Notes: generated by a model not told the origin, from the sequence alone. Shown: positions 31,062 to 44,753, counted from the stretch's first letter. The stretch is DNA of 64,000 nt from Phycisphaerae bacterium (GCA_029260015.1 JAJDEB010000009.1:1-64000), one strand, 5' to 3'. Numbers and translations are program-made.

Positions 31062-32522
31062 CTATTCATTTGGGCTCTGGGACATCGCCGTTTTCAGCCT
31101 CACCGTAAACTGGCAGCCACCCTCGGGAAGGTTCGCGACCTTAATCTCGCCACCGTGGAGATCAACAACCCCCTTTACGATCGCAAGCCCAAGGCCGACC
31201 CCCTGAAATGTGGAGTGTTCGTCCGGCACCCGATAGAAACGGTCAAAAACATGTGGCACATGTTCGTCAGGAATCCCGGGGCCACCGTCTCGAACAGAAA
31301 TAACGGCGAACGCATCGGTGACTTCCACGGTCACCCCGACCTGCGTTTGCGGAGGTGCGTAGCGAATGGCGTTGCGAAGCAGGTTGGTGACGGCGAGGGA
31401 GAGCAACGCATGGTCGCCATGTACAAGGAGGGCATCGTGTTCCTCTTCCGGCATCGCCAACGTGGGTACGATGTTGACCTCCACCCGCGATGCGATGTGC
31501 GCAGTGCGTTCAACGGCGGCCATCACGAATTCGTTGACCGGCGCATCAGTCATGGAAACCTGCAAACCACCCTCTGCCCGGGCGAGCATCAACAAACTCT
31601 CGACGACCTGGCTTAGCGCTCGCACTTCGTCCTGGACGGTCGAAAGGAAGCGTTCATATTCAATGGGCGAACGCTCGGACTGCGCCAACACTTGTGCTTC
31701 GCTGAGCAACAATGCAAGCGGTGTTTTTAGTTCATGGGCCACGTCGGCGATGAAGCGTTCATGCGAACGAAACGACGACGTGAATCGGTCGAGCATCCGA
31801 TTCAGACCGGTGAGCATCGCTTTGACGTCATCCGTGGATGCATGCGCATCAAAGCGCATGGACAGGTCTTCAACTTGAAATCGCTCTGCGGTGGCTACGA
31901 TTTGCGAAAGCGGTGCCAGGTTGCGTCGCGCCATCCACCACGCCAAAGTTGCCCCCACAAGCAATCCCAGGCAGGAACCGCCGACAACAAGATTGCGCAA
32001 TCGAGTCCAGGACTTGAGAAGCGGTGCTGTACTCAGCGCCAATTGCAAGATGTGCGGCTGGGGAGTTGAGTCGACGTCCACAGTCAGCATCCGCAGTTCG
32101 CCGGATTCCCCAACAAGCCCGCGCGGAATCGCGCCCTCTAAAGTCTCAAACACGGGTCCACGTTTTAGTAGCGTCACTGCATCGTCAGGCAAGGGTAGCG
32201 TTTGCTCCGCGAGGCTCGCTGACTTTGCAACCACGACGCCCTCGGCATTGCGAAGCTGCAGGTAATAATCCGGAAATCGAAATGACCGCAACTGCGTTGC
32301 AGGCGATTCTGACCCGGCTCCATTCCTCGCGAGCGCGTCGCAGACCACCTCGGCATGAATCCGCAGTCCATCGTCAAACTGCTCGCACATGTCGCGATCG
32401 CGGGCGATCAGCAGACCTCCGCAAACAACAATCAGGACAGCCGCAAACACGCCTATGAAATGCAGCGTGAGCCGCGATTGAATCGATCGTGCTTTTTTCC
32501 ACATGGCGATTTTTCGATACAA
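31062..32522 (-). CDS. Sensor histidine kinase
   Basis: H-box FIADVAHELKTPLALLLSEAQ; NLLRNAIRYAPP; DGGPGIPDEHVPHVFDRFYR; GVGLGLAIVKGV. ATG at 32504 is an alternative start. Confidence 0.94.
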   Translation of the reverse strand: MYRKIAMWKKARSIQSRLTLHFIGVFAAVLIVVCGGLLIARDRDMCEQFDDGLRIHAEVVCDALARNGAGSESPATQLRSFRFPDYYLQLRNAEGVVVAKSASLAEQTLPLPDDAVTLLKRGPVFETLEGAIPRGLVGESGELRMLTVDVDSTPQPHILQLALSTAPLLKSWTRLRNLVVGGSCLGLLVGATLAWWMARRNLAPLSQIVATAERFQVEDLSMRFDAHASTDDVKAMLTGLNRMLDRFTSSFRSHERFIADVAHELKTPLALLLSEAQVLAQSERSPIEYERFLSTVQDEVRALSQVVESLLMLARAEGGLQVSMTDAPVNEFVMAAVERTAHIASRVEVNIVPTLAMPEEEHDALLVHGDHALLSLAVTNLLRNAIRYAPPQTQVGVTVEVTDAFAVISVRDGGPGIPDEHVPHVFDRFYRVPDEHSTFQGVGLGLAIVKGVVDLHGGEIKVANLPEGGCQFTVRLKTAMSQSPNE

Positions 32523-32533
32523 CGGTGGCGGGG

Positions 32534-33211
32534 TCAGACGGGTTCCTCGCTGAGCACATAACCGACGCCGATTTCTGTGTGGATTAACCTTCGTTCAAAA
32601 TCTCGATCGACCTTGCGGCGGAGCATGCTCACATACACGTCGATGACATTGCTGTCGCCCTCAAAATTCATGTCCCACACATGCTCACCGATTGAGGTGC
32701 GCGTCAGAACACGATGCGGATTGCGCAGAAAATACTCCAGGAGTGCAAATTCCTTCGCGGTCAGCTTGATGCGCACCCCGCCTCGCATGACCTTTCGTTC
32801 GACCAGGTCCATCTCCAGATCGGCAAAATTCAGACGGGCGGTGTTGGCCCCTTGGCCGCGGCGCAGCAGCGCTCGAAGCCGGGCGAGTAACTCATCGAAT
32901 TCAAATGGCTTTGCCAGATAGTCATCTGCGCCCGCGTCGAGGCCTTTGACCTTGTCGGCAGTACCCGACAGTGCGGTAAGCATCAGGATCGGGGTTTTGA
33001 TACCGCGTCGCCTGAGGTTGGCACACGCCTGAATCCCGTCTTGATCGGGAAGCATCACGTCGAGAATGATCGCGTCATACGGCTCAGCCGCCGCCAGGTC
33101 TTCACCTTCGTGACCGCCGCCTGCCAAATCGACGGCATAACCGTTTTCAGCAAGGCCCTTGCGAATCACACTGGCCATCCGCGGGTTGTCTTCCACGATC
33201 AGGACACGCAT
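32534..33211 (-). CDS. OmpR-family response regulator
   Basis: MRVLIVEDNPRMASVIRKGLAENGYAVD; AIILDVMLPDQDGI; winged helix LTAKEFALLEYFLRNPHRVLTRTSIGEHVWD. Start trimmed to the canonical REC N-terminus. Confidence 0.94.
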   Translation of the reverse strand: MRVLIVEDNPRMASVIRKGLAENGYAVDLAGGGHEGEDLAAAEPYDAIILDVMLPDQDGIQACANLRRRGIKTPILMLTALSGTADKVKGLDAGADDYLAKPFEFDELLARLRALLRRGQGANTARLNFADLEMDLVERKVMRGGVRIKLTAKEFALLEYFLRNPHRVLTRTSIGEHVWDMNFEGDSNVIDVYVSMLRRKVDRDFERRLIHTEIGVGYVLSEEPV

Positions 33212-33442
33212 CTGAGCGACGCTCCAATCTCTGCGTAAATACGAATAACAGTCTTGCTGGACACAAGCGTATTCGCTCAGTCCAAACCAGGCAATGAACG
33301 CTCCAACGCCCGGAATCGTTACCCCAAGCACACCGAATGAAAAGTTCTTAATCCCGTACTCACGGAGAATTCATGGCGCATCGGGATTCTATCCGAGATT
33401 GTGTCGCCGGTCACAAGATGCGTCCGGCTTCGGAGAATGGGT

Positions 33443-34728: not shown

Positions 34729-35811
34729 TTATCGTGGATGAAAACTCGAACCGGGGCGGAGTTTACGACAGAACTCAACAAGCAAATCGGTTGCTCGATC
34801 GACATCTTTGAGGTCCACCGTTTCTACCGCCGTGTGCATATAGCGACAGGGTATGCCCACAATTCCGATCGCAATTCCTGCCCGTGATATCTGCAACGCG
34901 TCTGCATCCGAGGGGCTGCACTCTGGTTGGGCTTCTGGTTGGACGGGAATTTTTTTTGCCCGTGCGGCGCTACGTAGCAATTCGCCGACCCGCGCGTTCG
35001 CATTGGCCCCGACAACGATGCTTGGCCCATGGCCCAATGAGACTTCTCCCGCAGTCCTTCGATCGACATCTGGAACGTCAACAGCATCGGTGACATCGAC
35101 ACAGATCGCGACGTCGGGTTTGATTGCATAAGCCGCGGTCATAGCACCACGCGATCCGATTTCTTCCTGCACCGTGCTGACTGCAAAAATCGCGCAGTTG
35201 GGACGTTGGCGACTCAGCTTGCGCGCCGCTTCCGTGATGACGGCGATGCCGGCTTTGTTGTCCAGACCGGGGCCAGTCAGCAAGCGATCGCCGAGCATTT
35301 CCGCACCCAGCGCAAAGGTAACAGTGTCTCCGATGGCCAGTTTTCGCATGGCGTCACTGCGACTCTTTGCCCCGATGTCGATCGCCAGATCACGAAAGGC
35401 CAGATCACGAAAGGAAGATTTTGAATCCTTTTGGGTTGGCCCGCGTAAACGTTCCGGACAATGTCCGATCACACCTGACGTCGCGCCCTTTCGGGTATGG
35501 ACAGAAACTCTTGACCCAGGCAGTAACGCCGGGTCTAATCCTCCAATGGCCCGCGCAAAAGCGAACCCCTGCTCGTCGACGTGGGTGACCATAAGCCCGA
35601 TCTGATCGACATGTGCAGCGAGCATGACCCGCGGCTTGCCGTCGGGGTTGATGGCGCAAATCAAGTTGCCATGTATGTCCGCATCAATCGTGTCTGCCTT
35701 CTCAGCCATGCGCGTTCGGACAACGCGCTGTGCCGGTTGCTCGAATCCCGACGGAGATGGCGTGTTCAACAGCTTCTCAAGAAATCGCAGATGATCCGGT
35801 CGCATGAACAT
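34729..35811 (-). CDS. M42-family metallopeptidase (aminopeptidase/endoglucanase-like)
   Basis: PSPSGFEQPAQRVV; VMLAAHVDQIGLMVTHVDEQGF; GPGLDNKAGIAVITEAA; VSTVQEEIGSRGAMTAAYAI; GIPCRYMHTAVETVDLKDVD. Confidence 0.93.
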   Translation of the reverse strand: MFMRPDHLRFLEKLLNTPSPSGFEQPAQRVVRTRMAEKADTIDADIHGNLICAINPDGKPRVMLAAHVDQIGLMVTHVDEQGFAFARAIGGLDPALLPGSRVSVHTRKGATSGVIGHCPERLRGPTQKDSKSSFRDLAFRDLAIDIGAKSRSDAMRKLAIGDTVTFALGAEMLGDRLLTGPGLDNKAGIAVITEAARKLSRQRPNCAIFAVSTVQEEIGSRGAMTAAYAIKPDVAICVDVTDAVDVPDVDRRTAGEVSLGHGPSIVVGANANARVGELLRSAARAKKIPVQPEAQPECSPSDADALQISRAGIAIGIVGIPCRYMHTAVETVDLKDVDRATDLLVEFCRKLRPGSSFHPR

Positions 35812-36039: not shown

Positions 36040-37161
36040 ATGAATACTGAGTTTTCTTCCGAAACAAGCGAAGCGCAACCTCAAAAAAACACGTCAGAGT
36101 CGCTGCTGGATGGTGCGACTTCCGATGAGTTCCAACTGCCCGCTGAGCTTAAAGACCAGCGCCGTGTAGCCGCCGACAAGAATCGCACGATTGACGAGCG
36201 TCTGGAAGCCTTTGAAGACGTCATGGATTCAGAGGTTGGGGATACGTCGTTTGCCCGGGCTCGAAACATTGAACGGGCGGAAGGCATTCGTCAGTTGTAT
36301 TTGAAATTTGAAGGCGGAAATCCCACCGGTACGCAGAAAGACCGAATCGCCTTTGCACAGGCGCACGACGCAATGCGCCGTGGTTTCGATGCGATCACGG
36401 TTGCAACTTGTGGCAATTATGGCGCAGCCCTCTCAATCGCGGCGCGCATCGCCGGGTTGCGCTGCATCATCTACATTCCGGAAAGCTACCAAAGTCGGCG
36501 AATTGAGGAGATGACCCAACAAGGTGCCGAGATTCTACGGGCCCCCGGTGACTATGAAGATGTCGTTGACTTGTCGCGCCAGCGGTCTGTTGATGACGAG
36601 ATCTACGACGCAAATCCTGGCGGTGCCAATACGGCATTGCAGTTGCAGGCCTACGGTGAAATCGCCCACGAGATTTATGACGAATTACGCGACGCACCGG
36701 CAGCCGTCGCCGTTCCAGTGTCCAATGGAACTACACTCGCTGGCATTTACAAAGGCTTTTTAAGTTTGTACCGGCGCGGCAAGACATCGCGCATGCCCCG
36801 ATTTATCGCGGGGTCTACCTATAACAAAAACCCGATCGTGCATGCCTTGATTCGCAATTTGCCGACGTGCGACAACCTGCCACGCGAGCGCGTCCGGGAA
36901 TCGAAAATCAACGAACCGCTGATCAACTGGCATGCGATTGACGGCGAACACGCGGTGCAAGCTGTCCGGGAGTCCAATGGGCACGCTGCTTTTGCCAGTG
37001 ACCGCGCCATGCTATCCAGTGCAAAATCGCTACGCGAAAAAGAGGGCTTGAGTGTGCTGCCCGCCTCGACGGCTGGCCTCATCGCACTGATTGATCTGTG
37101 CCGCCGAGAATCAATGCCGCCCGACCGGTATGTAGCCGTACTGACAGGTAAACGAACATGA
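36040..37161 (+). CDS. Fold-type II PLP-dependent enzyme (threonine synthase-like)
   Basis: LYLKFEGGNPTGTQKDRIA (PLP lysine context), VATCGNYGAALSIAARIAG, VPVSNGTTLAGIYKGF, LPASTAGLIAL. Confidence 0.88.
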   Translation: MNTEFSSETSEAQPQKNTSESLLDGATSDEFQLPAELKDQRRVAADKNRTIDERLEAFEDVMDSEVGDTSFARARNIERAEGIRQLYLKFEGGNPTGTQKDRIAFAQAHDAMRRGFDAITVATCGNYGAALSIAARIAGLRCIIYIPESYQSRRIEEMTQQGAEILRAPGDYEDVVDLSRQRSVDDEIYDANPGGANTALQLQAYGEIAHEIYDELRDAPAAVAVPVSNGTTLAGIYKGFLSLYRRGKTSRMPRFIAGSTYNKNPIVHALIRNLPTCDNLPRERVRESKINEPLINWHAIDGEHAVQAVRESNGHAAFASDRAMLSSAKSLREKEGLSVLPASTAGLIALIDLCRRESMPPDRYVAVLTGKRT

Positions 37162-38267
37162 GTCATTCATTCGACGGAAACGCGATCGTTTACTGCGAGG
37201 GCGCATTTACGACGCCCAACGGGAAAACGGCGCACGGACTGGTTCGACACACGGATCGATACCGCGTCATCAATGTGGTGGATTCGGTGCATGCCGGAAA
37301 TGACGCGGGGCAGCTTCTTGATCGGCGGCCCAACGATATCCCCGTGGTCGATTCGATTGCAACTGCAATCACGGATGCCAAGAAGGCGAACAAACCAGCT
37401 ACGCACCTGGTCATCGGATTGGCTCCTGATGGCGGGCGGTTGTCGTTATTTGCTCGCGACGACGTCAAAGTGGCGATTCGATCCGGACTGCATGTAGACA
37501 GCGGGCTTCACGATCTCTTGAGCGAAGACACCGAGATTGCAGAGCTTGCCCGAGAGTTTGGCGTGCAACTTCGAGATGTGCGCAAACCGCCACCGCTCTC
37601 GCAATTGCACTTCTTCTCAGGAAAAATCGAAGACGTCACCAGCTTCAAGGTGGCGGTGCTTGGTACGGACTCTGCCATCGGAAAACGCACGACAGCCGTC
37701 CTGCTCGTCAAAGCGCTTCGTGAACAAGGGTTGACCGCGGAGTTGATCGGGACCGGGCAAACCTCCTGGATGCAGGGCGTGCGTTACGGAATCGTCCTCG
37801 ATTCGCTCATCAATGACTTTGTCGCGGGTGAAATTGAGCACGCCGTTTGGAGCGCCTGGTCAGAACAGAAACCCGACGTCATCATCCTTGAAGGACAAGG
37901 GAGCTTGCTCAACCCCGCGTATCCAGGTGGGTTCGAGTTGTTAGCCGCCGGTAGACCGGACGCAGTCGTTATGCAGCACGCACCCGCGCGCGACGTTTAT
38001 GATGGTTTTCCGAATCATCCGATGCACCCGCTAGAACGACAGATTCAAGCGATCGAAGTTGTTTCTGATCGCCCGGTTGTCGCAGTCACGTTGAACCACG
38101 AGTTGCTCGATCAGGATGCGATCGAACAGTCGAAGCGCGATGTCGCAGGTGAAACCGGTCTGCCCGTCTTTGATGTACTGCTCGAAGGGGCGGCTGGCTT
38201 GGCTGAAGTCATCGCACAGCGTATTGCAAGTAGAGAGTGTGTCGCGAGAGAAAGTGTGAATCGATGA
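37158..38267 (+). CDS. DUF1611 family P-loop protein (DgcN-like)
   Basis: VAVLGTDSAIGKRTTAVLLVKALREQGLTAELIGTGQTSWMQG and VIILEGQGSLLNPAYPGGFELLAAGRPDAVVMQHAP. ATGA overlap with the previous gene. Confidence 0.88.
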   Translation: MSHSFDGNAIVYCEGAFTTPNGKTAHGLVRHTDRYRVINVVDSVHAGNDAGQLLDRRPNDIPVVDSIATAITDAKKANKPATHLVIGLAPDGGRLSLFARDDVKVAIRSGLHVDSGLHDLLSEDTEIAELAREFGVQLRDVRKPPPLSQLHFFSGKIEDVTSFKVAVLGTDSAIGKRTTAVLLVKALREQGLTAELIGTGQTSWMQGVRYGIVLDSLINDFVAGEIEHAVWSAWSEQKPDVIILEGQGSLLNPAYPGGFELLAAGRPDAVVMQHAPARDVYDGFPNHPMHPLERQIQAIEVVSDRPVVAVTLNHELLDQDAIEQSKRDVAGETGLPVFDVLLEGAAGLAEVIAQRIASRECVARESVNR

Positions 38268-40687
38268 ATCGCCGTGCAAACTCAAGAGCTGGCGATATCC
38301 ATCCAACCGGAAAAACGTCCAAGAAAAACCCGCTCGATTGCCTCTTCGTCATAGATCGACTCACAGTCGGTCCGGCGCGGATTGAATCGCGCCGCATCTG
38401 CGTGCCATACGAAGTGTCACAAGGCGGCACAACCGAGACCTTTGAACTCATCTTTCGTTATACAGCAGATGTGTTCTCGCCAGATGACATCGCTGACCAG
38501 AATCTCGCCGCGATGATCGGCTGCCAGGTAGCGCTGAACTACGGGCTGTTCGCGCGCGAAATCGTTTTTCGCGGCATATTCGACCAGCACGATCAGCGGT
38601 TTATTGCAAGCATGGCCGAAAACACGGCACGCGAAATCTACGTCAACAAGCTTTTGAAACCGAATTCATTTCTCGTTGGCGATGCCACCCACCTACCCGT
38701 CGTCAAACTGTCCCATTATTGCCAGGCTCGACTGGTCTTTGACGCTGCTGATGGCACCGCCGAGAAGGATCTCAAAGCCCGTCAATCCGAATGGACTTAC
38801 AGTGCAAATCGCTTCCTCGTTCTGTCGAGCGGCGGGAAGGACAGCCTGCTCACGTTCGGACTGCTGCGCGAAGCAAAGGCGGAAGTTCATCCGGTCTTCG
38901 TCAACGAATCGGGGCGACATTGGTTCACAGCGCTCAATGCATACCGGTATTTTGATGAGCATATTCCCAATACCGATCGGGTTTGGACCAATGCCGATCG
39001 ACTCTTTGCATGGATGCTGCGCAAGCTTCCCATCGTTCGGCAGGATTTCGCGAACGTCCGATCGGACGCCTACCCGATTCGCTTATGGACGGTGGCGGTG
39101 TTTGTATTCGGAACGTTGCCGATTGCCCGCAAATGCGGCGCTTGCCAGATCATCATCGGTGACGAATACGACACGACTGAGAAAACTACCCACGAAGGGA
39201 TTACGCACTACAACGGATTGTACGATCAAAGTCGCTACTTCGACGACGCCCTCTGTCGGTATTACGCACGAAAGCGCTGGGGGCTCACCCAATTTTCGAT
39301 TCTGCGGCCGATGTCTGAGTTGCTGATTGAGAAGACGTTGGCCCAGCGCTATCCGAATCTATTGGCACTCCAGACTTCGTGTCATGCAACGCACAAAGAA
39401 GGCGAAACGATTCGACCTTGCGGAAAATGCGAAAAGTGCCGCCGCATCATGACCATGTTAGCCGCCATCGATGTTGATCCAAAAGTCTGTGGCTATTCGC
39501 AAGAACAGTTAGTAAAAAGCCTCGCGGAATTTGCCCGCGCAGAACTACATCAGGAACTGGCTGGCGTACAGCAACTCGGGCATTTGCTTCGGTCACGTGG
39601 GTTGATTCAGGCTGACAAAATCGATGGAGCGTCGGTGAAAGAACGCAAGGAGATCATGCAACTACGCTTTGATCGCGAGCGCTCACCGATTGGTGCGATT
39701 CCGGCCAAGCTGCGTGCGAAGATTTACCCATTGATGCTCGCCCATACCGAAGGTGCAGTAGAGAAGCAGGGCCGCATGTGGTCTGCTTTCGACCCACTGG
39801 CCACCAACGCCATGTCCCAACCGTATCCATTTGAACAACCGGAGCGTGAATTGAAATCTGCCAACAAGAAGTCTGCAAACAAGAAATCTGCGGGCAACGC
39901 GACAGACAAATGGCTATGGGGCGAGTTCACTTGGCCCCAGGCGGAAGCACAACTTCGCAGTGTTGATGTCGCGCTTCTTCCGGTTGGGGCGATCGAGCAG
40001 CATGGCCACCACCTTCCCCTCGATACCGATGCGTTTGACGCGGATCACCTGGCGCAAGAAGTCGCTCGTGCGTGCGCAACGCCTCGGCCATTCGTCTTGC
40101 CGTTGATCCCTTATGGCGTGTCGTACCATCACGACGATTTTCGCGGTACAATCAGCGTCACCAACGAAACGCTTTCTCGATTGGTTTACGAAATTGGCAT
40201 GAGCGTGGCGCGCAATGGCATCACCAAACTGGTCATCATCAATGGTCATGGGGGCAATGCCGCGACGCTCCAGTTCGCAGCCCAGATGATCAACCGCGAC
40301 GCCCACATCTTCACATGCGTTGACACCGGAGAAACCAGCGACACCGACATCGACGAGCACACCGAGACACGCAGCGATCTGCATGCAGGTGAGGTCGAGA
40401 CGAGTACTTCGCTCGCGACTCGGCCACACCTGGTTCAGATGAACAAAGCAAAGAAATGCATCTCCAAATTCTCGAGTCGATACCTGGATTTCAGTTCGCA
40501 ACGGAGTGTCGACTGGTACGCCCGGACTGCGAAAATTTCCTCCAGCGGTGTCATGGGCGATCCAACGAAGGCCACCGTTGAAAAGGGCCATCGCATTTGG
40601 GAAATCATGATCAGTAACCTTGTGGGGCTCGTCGAACATCTCAAGCAGATGACGCTCGACGAAATTCATCAACGAAACCGCTTCTAG
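38264..40687 (+). CDS. Two-domain fusion: PP-loop ATPase (MurL-like?) with Cys4-type knuckle, plus C-terminal creatininase-family amidohydrolase
   Basis: N-terminal FLVLSSGGKDSLLTFGLL (PP-loop) and RPCGKCEKCRRIM; Lys/Ala/Asn linker; C-terminal VALLPVGAIEQHGHHLPLDTDAFDADHLAQEVA and VIINGHGGNAATLQFAAQ (creatininase metal-binding motifs). ATGA overlap with the DUF1611 gene. Confidence 0.85.
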   Translation: MNRRANSRAGDIHPTGKTSKKNPLDCLFVIDRLTVGPARIESRRICVPYEVSQGGTTETFELIFRYTADVFSPDDIADQNLAAMIGCQVALNYGLFAREIVFRGIFDQHDQRFIASMAENTAREIYVNKLLKPNSFLVGDATHLPVVKLSHYCQARLVFDAADGTAEKDLKARQSEWTYSANRFLVLSSGGKDSLLTFGLLREAKAEVHPVFVNESGRHWFTALNAYRYFDEHIPNTDRVWTNADRLFAWMLRKLPIVRQDFANVRSDAYPIRLWTVAVFVFGTLPIARKCGACQIIIGDEYDTTEKTTHEGITHYNGLYDQSRYFDDALCRYYARKRWGLTQFSILRPMSELLIEKTLAQRYPNLLALQTSCHATHKEGETIRPCGKCEKCRRIMTMLAAIDVDPKVCGYSQEQLVKSLAEFARAELHQELAGVQQLGHLLRSRGLIQADKIDGASVKERKEIMQLRFDRERSPIGAIPAKLRAKIYPLMLAHTEGAVEKQGRMWSAFDPLATNAMSQPYPFEQPERELKSANKKSANKKSAGNATDKWLWGEFTWPQAEAQLRSVDVALLPVGAIEQHGHHLPLDTDAFDADHLAQEVARACATPRPFVLPLIPYGVSYHHDDFRGTISVTNETLSRLVYEIGMSVARNGITKLVIINGHGGNAATLQFAAQMINRDAHIFTCVDTGETSDTDIDEHTETRSDLHAGEVETSTSLATRPHLVQMNKAKKCISKFSSRYLDFSSQRSVDWYARTAKISSSGVMGDPTKATVEKGHRIWEIMISNLVGLVEHLKQMTLDEIHQRNRF

Positions 40688-40696
40688 GCAACGATC

Positions 40697-41758
40697 ATGA
40701 ATATCACGAAGATTGAATGCTGGTCGGTGAGCATGCGACTGGCAGAAAGTTACGAGATCGCGTACGAGAAAGTCACTTCGACGACCAATGTGTTTCTGCG
40801 AATCGAGACGCATAACGGCATCTGTGGTTTTGGTTGCGCCGCACCGGACGAGCCAATCACCGGAGAAACAGCGGAATCAGTCCGCGGCGATCTGGAAGGC
40901 GTGGTTGAACCGTTGCTAAAGAGTCTTGATGCTTCGCGTTACGCGTGGCTGATGGATCAAGTTGTCGAAGCATTGCCCAATAGCCCCGCAACAAGGGCGG
41001 CCGTTGATATGGCATTGTTTGATGTGCTGGGAAAAGCCACCGGTTTGTCCGTCTACCAACTATTGGGCGGTTATCGCACTTCGATCCCTACAAGCATCAC
41101 AATCGGTCTGATGCCATTTGAAGATGCCGTCGAGCACGCCGTACGCCATGTAAGTCGAGGCTTTCAATGTCTGAAGATCAAGGGCGGTCTCGACGTGAAT
41201 GAAGACATTGAACGCGTGCATGCCGTGCGCGATCGAGTCGGCCCGGCGATCGAACTGCGATTCGACGCGAACCAGGGTTACACCGTTGAACAGGCTCGAC
41301 ATTTTGTTGAACGGACCAAGACAGCGAAGCTCGAACTGCTGGAGCAACCGACACCGCGTGGAGCGCCCGACCTGCTCGGCCGCGTCACTCAATCCGTTGC
41401 CCTGCCTGTGATGGCCGACGAGAGTCTGATGTCCCTGCGCGATGCATTTCGGCTGGCAAGTGAAGGACTCGCCGACATGGTCAACGTCAAACTCATGAAA
41501 GTGGGTGGAATCCTCGAAGCCTTGCAGGTCAATGCCGTCGCCAAGTCTGCAAAGCTGGAGGTGATGGTCGGCTGCATGGATGAAGCCGGGCTCGCCATCG
41601 CCGCCGGACTGCACTATGCCCTCGCGCGGAAAAACGTCGTTTATGCCGACCTCGACGGTCATTTTGATTTGATCGATGATCCGTCACACGCGGCACTGCG
41701 TCTCAAGGATGGCATTCTCTATCCTGCCGAAGGCCCCGGATTCGGTTGGTCGATCTAG
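40697..41758 (+). CDS. Enolase-superfamily enzyme, dipeptide epimerase/DgcA-like (muconate-lactonizing subgroup)
   Basis: GCAAPDEPITGETAESV; CLKIKGG (KxK); ELRFDANQGY; LLEQPTPRG; PVMADESLMS; VNVKLMKVGGI; MVGCMDEAG. Confidence 0.92.
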   Translation: MNITKIECWSVSMRLAESYEIAYEKVTSTTNVFLRIETHNGICGFGCAAPDEPITGETAESVRGDLEGVVEPLLKSLDASRYAWLMDQVVEALPNSPATRAAVDMALFDVLGKATGLSVYQLLGGYRTSIPTSITIGLMPFEDAVEHAVRHVSRGFQCLKIKGGLDVNEDIERVHAVRDRVGPAIELRFDANQGYTVEQARHFVERTKTAKLELLEQPTPRGAPDLLGRVTQSVALPVMADESLMSLRDAFRLASEGLADMVNVKLMKVGGILEALQVNAVAKSAKLEVMVGCMDEAGLAIAAGLHYALARKNVVYADLDGHFDLIDDPSHAALRLKDGILYPAEGPGFGWSI

Positions 41759-41828: not shown

Positions 41829-44612
41829 TCATTCAAACGGGTCGCTCACTTCAACTCGAAGCTCACTGCAATTTTCTAGCGACGCATGTTCAAACGAAAC
41901 TTCGTTGGCATGAATCTCGCGTTGCATCTGCTTTCCAGCTTCGTCTAGCACGCGAATGGTTCTCGTTGGTACGTCGCAGCGCGCAACACTCACACTAAGG
42001 ATCATGCGTCGTAGTTTGCAACGAAACGAGATGCGGTTGAATGGATACGCATTGGCAGGGCAAATCTTCAGGCCCGTAAGTGTCGGCTGGATCCCGACGA
42101 CATGGCGTGCCAGAATCTTCAATAGCACATTGGAACTGCCTGTCTGCCAGTCGTTCATGCTTTGCCCATCGAGACCAAGCTCGACATTCTGGGCGTACGA
42201 ATTTGGCATGACGAAGGGCGAATGTGAAAGATTTTCACTCTTCTGGAGAAACGGCAAGACTTTGGCCAACTGCGCCCAGGCACGATCGGGTTCATTCATG
42301 GCGAACATCGCAGCCACGCCGAACAATGTGGAATGGACATACGTCGCGCCGTTCTCTGCGGTACCAATGGGCAATTTTCGAATGCGCCCGACACCGCGTG
42401 CATCGGATCGAAAACCCGGCTCGAACGTTTTGAGTCCGTAGGGAGAATCCAACCTTGAAAATGCGGCGAGGATATCCTCATCCGAAATTCCGCGTGGCGC
42501 TTCATCTCTCATTCCACTAAGGACCCAAAAAGCGTACGACGTTAAGCCGTCTCGCGCCTCGCCATCAACGTCTTTGAAACTCCCGACGTAATACTCGCGC
42601 CCATCACCCCAGCCGTGAACGATCCTTGAATGTCCGCCCTCTGAAACGAGCGCATGCAATTCGAGCGCTTTGCGAACACTCTCTTTGAGTTTTTGATATT
42701 CGGTGATTTCGTTGGCGAATCGGGATGCGTCAAGCGCCGCGTACACTTCGGCCATCTCTCGGCAGTTTTGGAAGAATTGCAGACTGGCCATCACGGAAAC
42801 ACCAGACCCAAACCCTTCCGCACCGTCGCTTCGCACGCCTAATCCGTCGAGCGCATCGTTCCAGTCGCCATAAAGGGCCCGGACCAAACCGGTTTCCAGG
42901 TCGCGTTGTCGATGGAGATAACCGCAAATGCGCTCCATGTGATTGAGAACCGTATCGGTTTCATCAGATAGCGCAATGGTTCCGGCGATCGGGTCAACGA
43001 TCTCATGGTACCCGACGATTTCGTTGAGAAGTGCAAGGTCGCCTGTCGTCGCCAGGTATGTGTAAATCGTTGAAATCACCCACACGCCCTGATCCACGAA
43101 CTCGCGTAGGTCGGCTTTGGTGATGTCGCCATCGATTGCAAGGGAGTATTGCCGTGGGCAGCGACCGTCACTCAAGACATGGGCCAAGCACTCCAGAATT
43201 CTTGCCCGCGCCATTGCAGGATCTTCGATCAGGATCGCTTCAACTGCTTGCATGACGTCGCGAACACCGATCAGCGAATTGGGCGACGCGTGCATGTAAC
43301 CTTCGGTTGATGCACACACTTCGATCTGCCTACGCAAATACGGAATGAATTGATTGATCGCATCGGTTTTGATGGGCGTCGTCTGATTTGAATCTTCAAA
43401 TGACAGCGAGATGCGTTCGCTCTTTTGTTGGCACGCATTGCGAATGCGAGAAAGTCGATGGTCGACACTCCAGGGAGACAGCGGATCGCAGACGGATTTC
43501 TCGAAGTCGTCAAACAGTTGATGATGACATAGTTCGTAATCGAATCTCGCGACGGCTCGCGGTGCGAGTGAAAATGACTGCAAGTCACCGGTGATTGCCG
43601 TATCGTGAAACACAGTCAGTTCGGGCTGACTTGAAAATAGACCATTCTGCAAGAACGATGCCGTACTCAAATTCCGAACCACTGAACCGTTATACGCACC
43701 GAGTGATGTGGCGACTTGCTGCTGCGGTGATTGAGCAACCTCCGAACCATTTGATTCGCAAACGATCACATGCCGACGTAACAGCCCTTGGTGCGTCACT
43801 GAACCGAATCGATTCTGGTCTTCATTGACCTCGAGCACAAAAGGTCGCAAATGCCCGTGCCGATCGCCGACCGCATCTGCAACGTCCGTACTATTTTGTG
43901 CGAGGTAAGTTTTCTTAAACCATCGGTCTTCATGGGTTTCGTGGAACTGATGTCGAAAGTGGGGATTGAAGAATGATGAAACGTACAACTCGGCTGGTGC
44001 ATCGCTCTTGTTCTCAACGAAGATCGACCACACCATCGCCGTGTTTCCCAGTGAATCGCTGTCCAGGAAGAATCGAACGCCTCCTCGGATCGATGGCGTC
44101 TCCGTGAAATACCAAACGCCATCGTGACCGATGACCGTATAACGTGAAAGTCCGTCGGAGTTTTCGCCCGCAAGCGATGGTACCGGCAGGAGCGAAAACG
44201 GTTCAAACGAATCGGAGTTGGAACTGCGCTGCCCCGCAACAAACGAAACGCATGGATCTTGGCCGGTCACTGGCGGCAGGAAGTAGAAGAACAGGCCCCG
44301 ATTGCCGTAGAATCGACCGGATGCGGTCGCCCAAAGGTGCGTTCCTTTGTCACCATATGGATATCGACTATCACCGTAAGCGCGCGGACCGCAATACACG
44401 CGACCATCGGGAATGAACATCGTATTGCCGGCAAGAATGCGCGGACGATTCTCTTCGGATTCATCAATCTGCGTGCGAACCTGCGAATCGATCTTTGCGA
44501 ACTCGTCGCGCAGCGAACTTGCACTACTACCGGATTGCAGCTTGTGATTTGTAGATTTGGTATCGCCAACTCGGATTGGCGTCTCTACTACTGAGTCGTC
44601 TGAATTCGCCAT
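41829..44612 (-). CDS. GH94-type (cellobiose phosphorylase-like) protein
   Basis: PDGRVYCGPRAYGDSRYPYGDKGTHLWATASGRFYGNRGLFFYFLPPVTGQDPCVSF; catalytic-region YGDWNDALDGLG; GSSNVLLKILARHVVGIQPTLTGLKICP. Confidence 0.85.
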   Translation of the reverse strand: MANSDDSVVETPIRVGDTKSTNHKLQSGSSASSLRDEFAKIDSQVRTQIDESEENRPRILAGNTMFIPDGRVYCGPRAYGDSRYPYGDKGTHLWATASGRFYGNRGLFFYFLPPVTGQDPCVSFVAGQRSSNSDSFEPFSLLPVPSLAGENSDGLSRYTVIGHDGVWYFTETPSIRGGVRFFLDSDSLGNTAMVWSIFVENKSDAPAELYVSSFFNPHFRHQFHETHEDRWFKKTYLAQNSTDVADAVGDRHGHLRPFVLEVNEDQNRFGSVTHQGLLRRHVIVCESNGSEVAQSPQQQVATSLGAYNGSVVRNLSTASFLQNGLFSSQPELTVFHDTAITGDLQSFSLAPRAVARFDYELCHHQLFDDFEKSVCDPLSPWSVDHRLSRIRNACQQKSERISLSFEDSNQTTPIKTDAINQFIPYLRRQIEVCASTEGYMHASPNSLIGVRDVMQAVEAILIEDPAMARARILECLAHVLSDGRCPRQYSLAIDGDITKADLREFVDQGVWVISTIYTYLATTGDLALLNEIVGYHEIVDPIAGTIALSDETDTVLNHMERICGYLHRQRDLETGLVRALYGDWNDALDGLGVRSDGAEGFGSGVSVMASLQFFQNCREMAEVYAALDASRFANEITEYQKLKESVRKALELHALVSEGGHSRIVHGWGDGREYYVGSFKDVDGEARDGLTSYAFWVLSGMRDEAPRGISDEDILAAFSRLDSPYGLKTFEPGFRSDARGVGRIRKLPIGTAENGATYVHSTLFGVAAMFAMNEPDRAWAQLAKVLPFLQKSENLSHSPFVMPNSYAQNVELGLDGQSMNDWQTGSSNVLLKILARHVVGIQPTLTGLKICPANAYPFNRISFRCKLRRMILSVSVARCDVPTRTIRVLDEAGKQMQREIHANEVSFEHASLENCSELRVEVSDPFE

Positions 44613-44753
44613 GCTTCTCTTCGCATCTTGTGATTGAAAAGTAGTCAGCCGCACTCACTCACGCCGCTAACTCCTTGTAGAATAAAACGTTCCCAATCAA
44701 GGTGCCTGTCACATGTGTAGTTTCAAACAGGCATCCCGTCCAAGGAAACGAAT

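Follow-up and report, generated by a model that had tools for sequence, protein, structure and literature searches.

What might a bacterium do with four genes packed so tightly that the first three share bases with one another? The question is raised by an operon on the plus strand of a stretch of DNA from a Phycisphaerae bacterium (GCA_029260015.1 JAJDEB010000009.1:1-64000; this whole stretch of 64,000 nucleotides is the window, and coordinates refer to it unless a locus is named). Four open reading frames lie at 36040-37161, 37158-38267, 38264-40687 and 40697-41758. Genes 1 and 2 overlap in an ATGA at 37158-37161, genes 2 and 3 in another at 38264-38267, and a gap of nine bases (40688-40696) separates genes 3 and 4, a layout that a first-pass annotation of the sequence had described exactly to the base. 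We put the odds at about even that these genes constitute one cytoplasmic pathway, complete in itself and spread horizontally, whose role is to make or tailor a small peptide or amide with a non-standard, probably D-configured residue.

The protein families named in that annotation were borne out by Pfam and NCBIfam. Gene 1 encodes a fold-type-II pyridoxal phosphate (PLP) enzyme that automatic matching calls "threonine synthase-like" (PALP PF00291, E 4.6e-51; PRK06381/NF004996, 416 bits). Gene 2 encodes a DUF1611 protein of the DgcN superfamily (PF07755, E 1.3e-63; PF17396, E 1.6e-23), and gene 4 a dipeptide epimerase-like protein of the enolase superfamily (MR_MLE N-terminal domain, E 7.5e-15; C-terminal domain, E 8.9e-49). 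The product of gene 3 is an 807-residue fusion of a PP-loop domain with a C-terminal creatininase-family amidohydrolase domain.

This combination of genes is conserved as a set. When an alignment of the PP-loop domain was used to scan 85,488 species genomes, 166 relatives were recovered (a single-sequence query of genome contigs had returned none), and the locus statistics given here refer to the best 80 of those 166. All five domains occur in identical order and on the same strand in 53 of the 80 loci, well beyond what chance would give; contig ends truncate another 12, and the other 15 are true variants that lack one or more parts. The possibility raised in the first-pass annotation, that the set might not be kept together in relatives, thus fails decisively. 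Identity to the window's proteins runs from 45 to 83% across phyla. The PP-loop and creatininase halves are fused in every one of the 71 loci that have both domains. Apparent splits of the fusion in two genomes (G027 and G041) are most likely assembly artefacts, as both are single-sequence metagenome-assembled genomes about 67% complete, one of them with runs of N near the break. Among the variants, two related Desulfobacterales loci (L084 and L105) keep the PLP enzyme and the fusion and have lost both DUF1611 and the epimerase, a joint loss which hints that these two proteins act together. In genome G031, a gene for an IS4-family transposase (L026:6017-7375) occupies the position expected for the PLP and DUF1611 genes.

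The operon is found, with a patchy distribution, in at least 10 phyla: the carriers belong to the Acidobacteriota, Gemmatimonadota, Bacteroidota/Ignavibacteriota, Desulfobacterota/Myxococcota, Zixibacteria, Latescibacteria, Krumholzibacteriota, Aminicenantes, Fibrobacterota and Planctomycetota, and they include the cultured Desulfosarcina alkanivorans, D. widdelii and Flexithrix dorotheae. Closer to home, a whole-genome search that covered 60 relatives showed just a few planctomycete genomes with the fusion and none among the genus mates (G001-G004), and a sample of 297 genomes from the phylum yielded one further clear carrier, G132, which belongs to another family and has the complete operon. 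A maximum-likelihood tree intermingles the phyla, requiring 22 label changes where the minimum is 10, a count that by itself does not prove transfer. Based on the intermixing taken together with the patchy distribution, the operon appears to move horizontally as a unit.

The PP-loop half of the fusion (approximately residues 20-530, 38321-39853) matches no Pfam family, QueC (PF06508) included at an E-value of 0.01. Its NCBIfam match is a weak one to MurL (NF041275; 31 bits, E 6.7e-8, against a cut-off of 700 bits, on which a true planctomycete MurL scores 478.7). Alignment-based comparison with hhalign gave a clearer picture: against two clear planctomycete MurLs the match had a probability of 97.8% (E 8e-13), rising to 99.5% (E 1.7e-22) when a third MurL-like protein was added, and in a single-sequence comparison the figures were 95.5% for MurL but 6% for Escherichia coli QueC. 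The AlphaFold (AF2) model of the fusion has a mean pLDDT (predicted local distance difference test) of 86, with most of the PP-loop domain above 90 and a disordered linker (residues 531-546) between the halves. Foldseek placed QatC, QueC and Cap9 as the best matches outside the creatininase family (QatC 9y02, E 2.3e-5, probability 1.00; QueC, template-modelling score TMt 0.65-0.70, with 0.65 for 2pg3). In the PP-loop motif SSGGKDS (residues 188-194, 38825-38845), S189, G190, G191, K192 and S194 are invariant among 63 sequences and S188 and D193 are at least 90% conserved, and the four-cysteine motif SC373H..PC386GxC389EKC392 (39380-39439), invariant in the same 63, aligns with the C..C..C..C of MurL. 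As judged from these alignments and the predicted structure, the domain is a remote MurL homologue with a QueC/QatC/Cap9-like fold. MurL, a peptidyl-Glu epimerase, converts ATP to AMP as it acts on the C-terminal Glu of a peptide (PMC8788868); QueC and Cap9 both form amides by activating a carboxylate, the attacking group being ammonia for QueC and the N-terminal amine of a protein for Cap9 (PMC13279940). By homology, carboxylate activation is the best-supported activity for the PP-loop domain. The first-pass annotation had recognized a PP-loop/creatininase fusion, which is real, but had missed both its MurL/QueC-like identity and its invariance.

The rank of QatC, a component of qatABCD, as the best non-creatininase structural match could be taken as a sign of an anti-phage defence system, or of one for protein modification, with this QueC/QatC-like protein as its marker. 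We find this hardly credible: PADLOC returned no matches for the four proteins, there is no QatA, QatB, QatD or CD-NTase partner, the partners are instead amino-acid enzymes, and the flanks contain no defence islands.

Gene 4 provides the second clue to the substrate. Its two catalytic lysines (K162 and K268) and three metal ligands (D190, E216 and D241) are invariant in every one of 53 loci; 52 of these also keep the DxD motif (D318-L-D320), which binds the N-terminal amine in dipeptide epimerases. The closest solved structures are 3rit, 3jva and 1jpm, and the GCMDE segment (residues 292-296, at least 90% conserved) is shared among the top solved matches with 3rit only. Position 24 is Glu in 49 of the 53 loci and Asp or Gln in the rest, whereas the Bacillus subtilis Ala-Glu epimerase has Arg24, which binds the Glu side chain of the substrate (1TKK); 3rit is reported to have been co-crystallized with L-Arg-D-Lys. 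On that basis Glu would be improbable as a substrate, and a cationic residue would be plausible. The conserved acidic pocket suggests a C-terminal substrate residue other than Glu, perhaps a cationic one. Gene 4 also falls short of the cut-offs of the Ala-Glu epimerase model NF041118 and of DgcA (NF042940; 174.5 bits against 400).

These observations bear on whether the MurL-like domain and the epimerase might feed D-Glu to peptidoglycan, as MurD2 and MurL do, and so bypass glutamate racemase (MurI). Besides the MurL homology itself, the idea draws on the lack of MurI in the window genome (G000) and of any MurI above the cut-off in the four other planctomycete carriers of its order. However, 26 of 36 genomes of the window's family, G000 included, lack MurI at the cut-off whether or not they carry the operon, so within the family the correlation is uninformative, and in other phyla MurI scores above the cut-off in 21 of 30 carrier genomes. 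No recurrent MurD or MurD2 was found among the genes of the 80 neighbourhoods; the loss of Arg24 and the low score of the fusion on the MurL model also count against such a bypass. We consider it very unlikely and reject it chiefly on the MurI-positive carriers. The link to D-Glu and Ala-Glu drawn in the first-pass annotation falls with the same evidence (Glu24, the missed DgcN, DgcA and Ala-Glu cut-offs, and MurI), although its broader theme of a D-amino acid or dipeptide fits an epimerase and a MurL-like domain well. Most of the 26 family genomes that lack MurI have no operon or MurL match either. The search also turned up a true MurL in one Planctomycetota locus (L047:6107-7459, 478.7 bits) and, in another (L046:5472-8458), a MurL-like gene that overlaps a MurD gene (305.6 bits), implying that MurD/MurL pairs reach beyond the taxa listed previously (PMC8788868).

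The creatininase half spans residues 551-807 (39914-40684; PF02633, E 7.6e-69, matched over residues 554-789), and Foldseek aligns it with 1q3k at a TMt of 0.78. The metal-ligand positions Glu34, His36, Asp45 and His120 of creatininase align with the invariant E578, H580, D589 and H662, but the position of Glu122 is taken by Gly664 and the score on the creatininase model TIGR04448 is 101 bits against a cut-off of 235. Because of this glycine, creatinine is not the expected substrate. One way to account for the invariant fusion would be an amidotransferase, in which the creatininase half frees ammonia and the QueC-like half joins it to an activated carboxylate to give an amide or nitrile. The QueC-like fold is compatible with this, and there are precedents: QueC uses NH3, and GMP synthetase, which also belongs to the PP-loop enzymes, has a glutaminase fused to it (PMC13329287, PMC13279940). 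Against these stand the closer sequence relationship of the domain to MurL than to QueC and four loci (L081, L113, L121 and L125) that keep the PP-loop domain without a creatininase domain. Since we also know of no creatininase-family member that serves as an ammonia donor, an amidotransferase seems to us rather improbable.

The gene 1 product exceeds the cut-off of NF004996 (266 bits) and is 54-67% identical across 61 loci; it also carries an N-terminal extension of about 60 residues. The phosphate-binding Arg160 of threonine synthase (Thermus thermophilus numbering) is replaced by Gln201, at least 97% conserved, and a canonical ThrC (215.7 bits) is encoded elsewhere in the window genome, making threonine synthase an unlikely function. 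In-frame TGA or TAA codons in the PLP genes of some carriers proved to be normal gene ends in the three loci affected. The gene 2 product combines a Rossmann-like N-terminal domain with a P-loop C-terminal domain (GTDSAIGKRTT) and has solved relatives in 2g0t, 2obn and 7xrj. By sequence it is a distant relative of DgcN, scoring 154 bits on NF041892 against a cut-off of 480.

The genes that recur beside the operon point toward the membrane. Genes for DUF2179 membrane proteins adjoin it in 15 loci from several phyla (L049, L050, L052, L053, L054, L056, L058, L060, L066, L069, L071, L073, L096, L105 and L124), most of them no farther away than about 130 bases or 1.1 kb, and they are of two membrane types, YitT and the DUF5698/UPF0316 kind. 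With 34 occurrences of DUF2179 in the 155 Mb of 30 carrier genomes, 0.022 adjacent cases would be expected whereas 7 of the 30 genomes have one, so the linkage is not due to chance, although some of those seven are related to one another. MscS-like channels lie no more than 1.2 kb from the operon in 6 of 80 loci (0.43 expected, p 6e-6). The two linkages, neither of them noted in the first-pass annotation, together suggest that the product passes through the membrane or is let out on osmotic downshift, and the DUF2179 domain common to both membrane types may sense that product. For YczE, a family sister to YitT, a role in moving amino-acid-like metabolites has been proposed (PMC4944035).

Other neighbours are less regular. 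A divergent M42 aminopeptidase gene (34729-35811, minus strand; PF05343, E 2.5e-73) had been noted upstream of the four; we reject it as a fifth member and place it outside the conserved module, as none of the 80 loci has an M42 homologue. On TIGR03106, the M42 model of the NAGGN osmolyte system, the score was 66 bits against a cut-off of 397.75. Directly downstream on the minus strand is a GH94-family glycoside phosphorylase gene (41829-44654), and genes resembling alpha-glucan phosphorylase lie downstream in seven other loci. A histidine kinase and an OmpR-type response regulator are encoded near the operon (31062-33331, minus strand), with a similar regulator in two planctomycete loci (L027 and L029). 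Rfam found no RNA or riboswitch in the window or seven relatives except one tRNA, and a scan for promoters and terminators scored no better than shuffled sequences.

Should the genes work in the catabolic direction, they would break down a D-amino-acid dipeptide of an exotic kind, or else an N-acylated amino acid, by a logic like that of DgcN and DgcA, with an amidase and a PLP lyase added. DUF1611 and an enolase-superfamily racemase do make a DgcN/DgcA-like pair, hydrolysis is what creatininase-type enzymes carry out, there are lyases among the fold-type-II PLP enzymes, and the window copy has a peptidase and a glycoside phosphorylase as neighbours. On the other hand, the neighbourhood survey found no uptake transporter or substrate-binding protein recurring beside the operon, an activating enzyme that converts ATP to AMP would be unusual in salvage, and the DgcN and DgcA cut-offs are missed. 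Such a salvage route is possible but doubtful.

Under the biosynthetic reading that we prefer, the PLP enzyme would use a reaction of the beta- or gamma-replacement type to make or modify an amino acid rather than form threonine from O-phosphohomoserine, and the DUF1611 protein might acylate an amino group, as its relative DgcN does, or carry out another nucleotide-dependent step. The MurL/QueC-like half of the fusion is expected from homology to activate a carboxylate as an acyl-AMP, which could then either be joined to an amine, as by QueC and Cap9, or be epimerized, as by MurL. The creatininase-type metallo-amidohydrolase may act on the same intermediate by cleaving an amide in it; this would account for a fusion that never varies. 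The enolase-superfamily enzyme, whose catalytic machinery is conserved, would epimerize the C-terminal residue of a dipeptide. Given the DUF2179 and MscS linkage, the product might be exported or released on osmotic shock, and an osmolyte-like solute is plausible. More speculatively, and with distinctly less confidence than in the pathway as such, we suggest a new pathway class, passed horizontally among at least ten phyla, that builds a D-residue dipeptide or dipeptide amide with an ATP-dependent MurL/QueC-type ligase-epimerase fused to a creatininase-type amidase, and whose product serves as a compatible solute or is exported as a signal, with DUF2179 proteins and mechanosensitive channels handling it.

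Several points weigh against this reading, the salvage route just described among them. We infer the pathway's substrates, direction, step order and product. Apart from PRK06381, the operon proteins miss every specific NCBIfam cut-off, and our view of the epimerase pocket draws partly on background from structure papers. The 15 true-variant loci imply that not every step is obligatory everywhere. Neither the DUF2179 nor the MscS neighbours are present at the window copy, whose genome has no DUF2179 gene at all, and some of the DUF2179-linked loci (L050 and L052) are closely related to each other.

We found no description of a pathway with this gene set in the open-licence literature, where just two papers among 5.39 million mention DUF1611, both in unrelated contexts, though an account in a subscription journal is possible; this agrees with the first-pass annotation, which knew of none. 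Overall, its picture of a conserved, undescribed amino-acid or dipeptide pathway stands, while the D-glutamate specifics do not, and the M42 peptidase falls outside the set. The set is thus conserved and apparently undescribed, and its cultured carriers make testing possible. If our interpretation is correct, the ATP-dependent carboxylate activation of MurL/QueC chemistry also serves a new metabolite, and DUF2179/YitT membrane proteins gain a functional context for the first time. "Threonine synthase", "creatininase" and "Ala-Glu epimerase", the names assigned automatically, are probably misnomers here.

Each protein resembles a known system but departs from it. Gene 1 shares the fold-type-II PLP scaffold with threonine synthase but has lost the Arg160 phosphate site, and its genome has a separate ThrC. 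Like the MftE/creatininase family, the C-terminal half of the fusion retains the metal-ligand positions and the fold; it differs from creatininase in having Gly for Glu122 and from MftE in scoring below the cut-off (153.7 against 172 bits), with no mycofactocin genes in the operon. The pairing of DUF1611 with an adjoining enolase-superfamily racemase recalls the D-glutamate catabolism of DgcN and DgcA, although both models score well below their cut-offs and the operon has three extra activities. Gene 4 has the Lys162/Lys268 two-base pair, metal ligands and DxD of L-Ala-D/L-Glu and other dipeptide epimerases (1jpm/1tkk, 3jva and 3rit), but Glu24 where the Ala-Glu enzyme has Arg24, and a score under the NF041118 cut-off. 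The N-terminal half of the fusion has the predicted fold and Cys motif of the QueC/QatC/Cap9 PP-loop family, but neither a Pfam QueC match nor defence or queuosine partners. Finally, although its score lies far below the MurL cut-off, a creatininase domain is fused to it, MurD2 is absent and the carriers usually have MurI, this half shares with MurL (XOO_1319, NF041275) the GGKDS of the PP-loop, FSxLRPLSEL and the four-Cys motif, with homology extending over about 250 residues.

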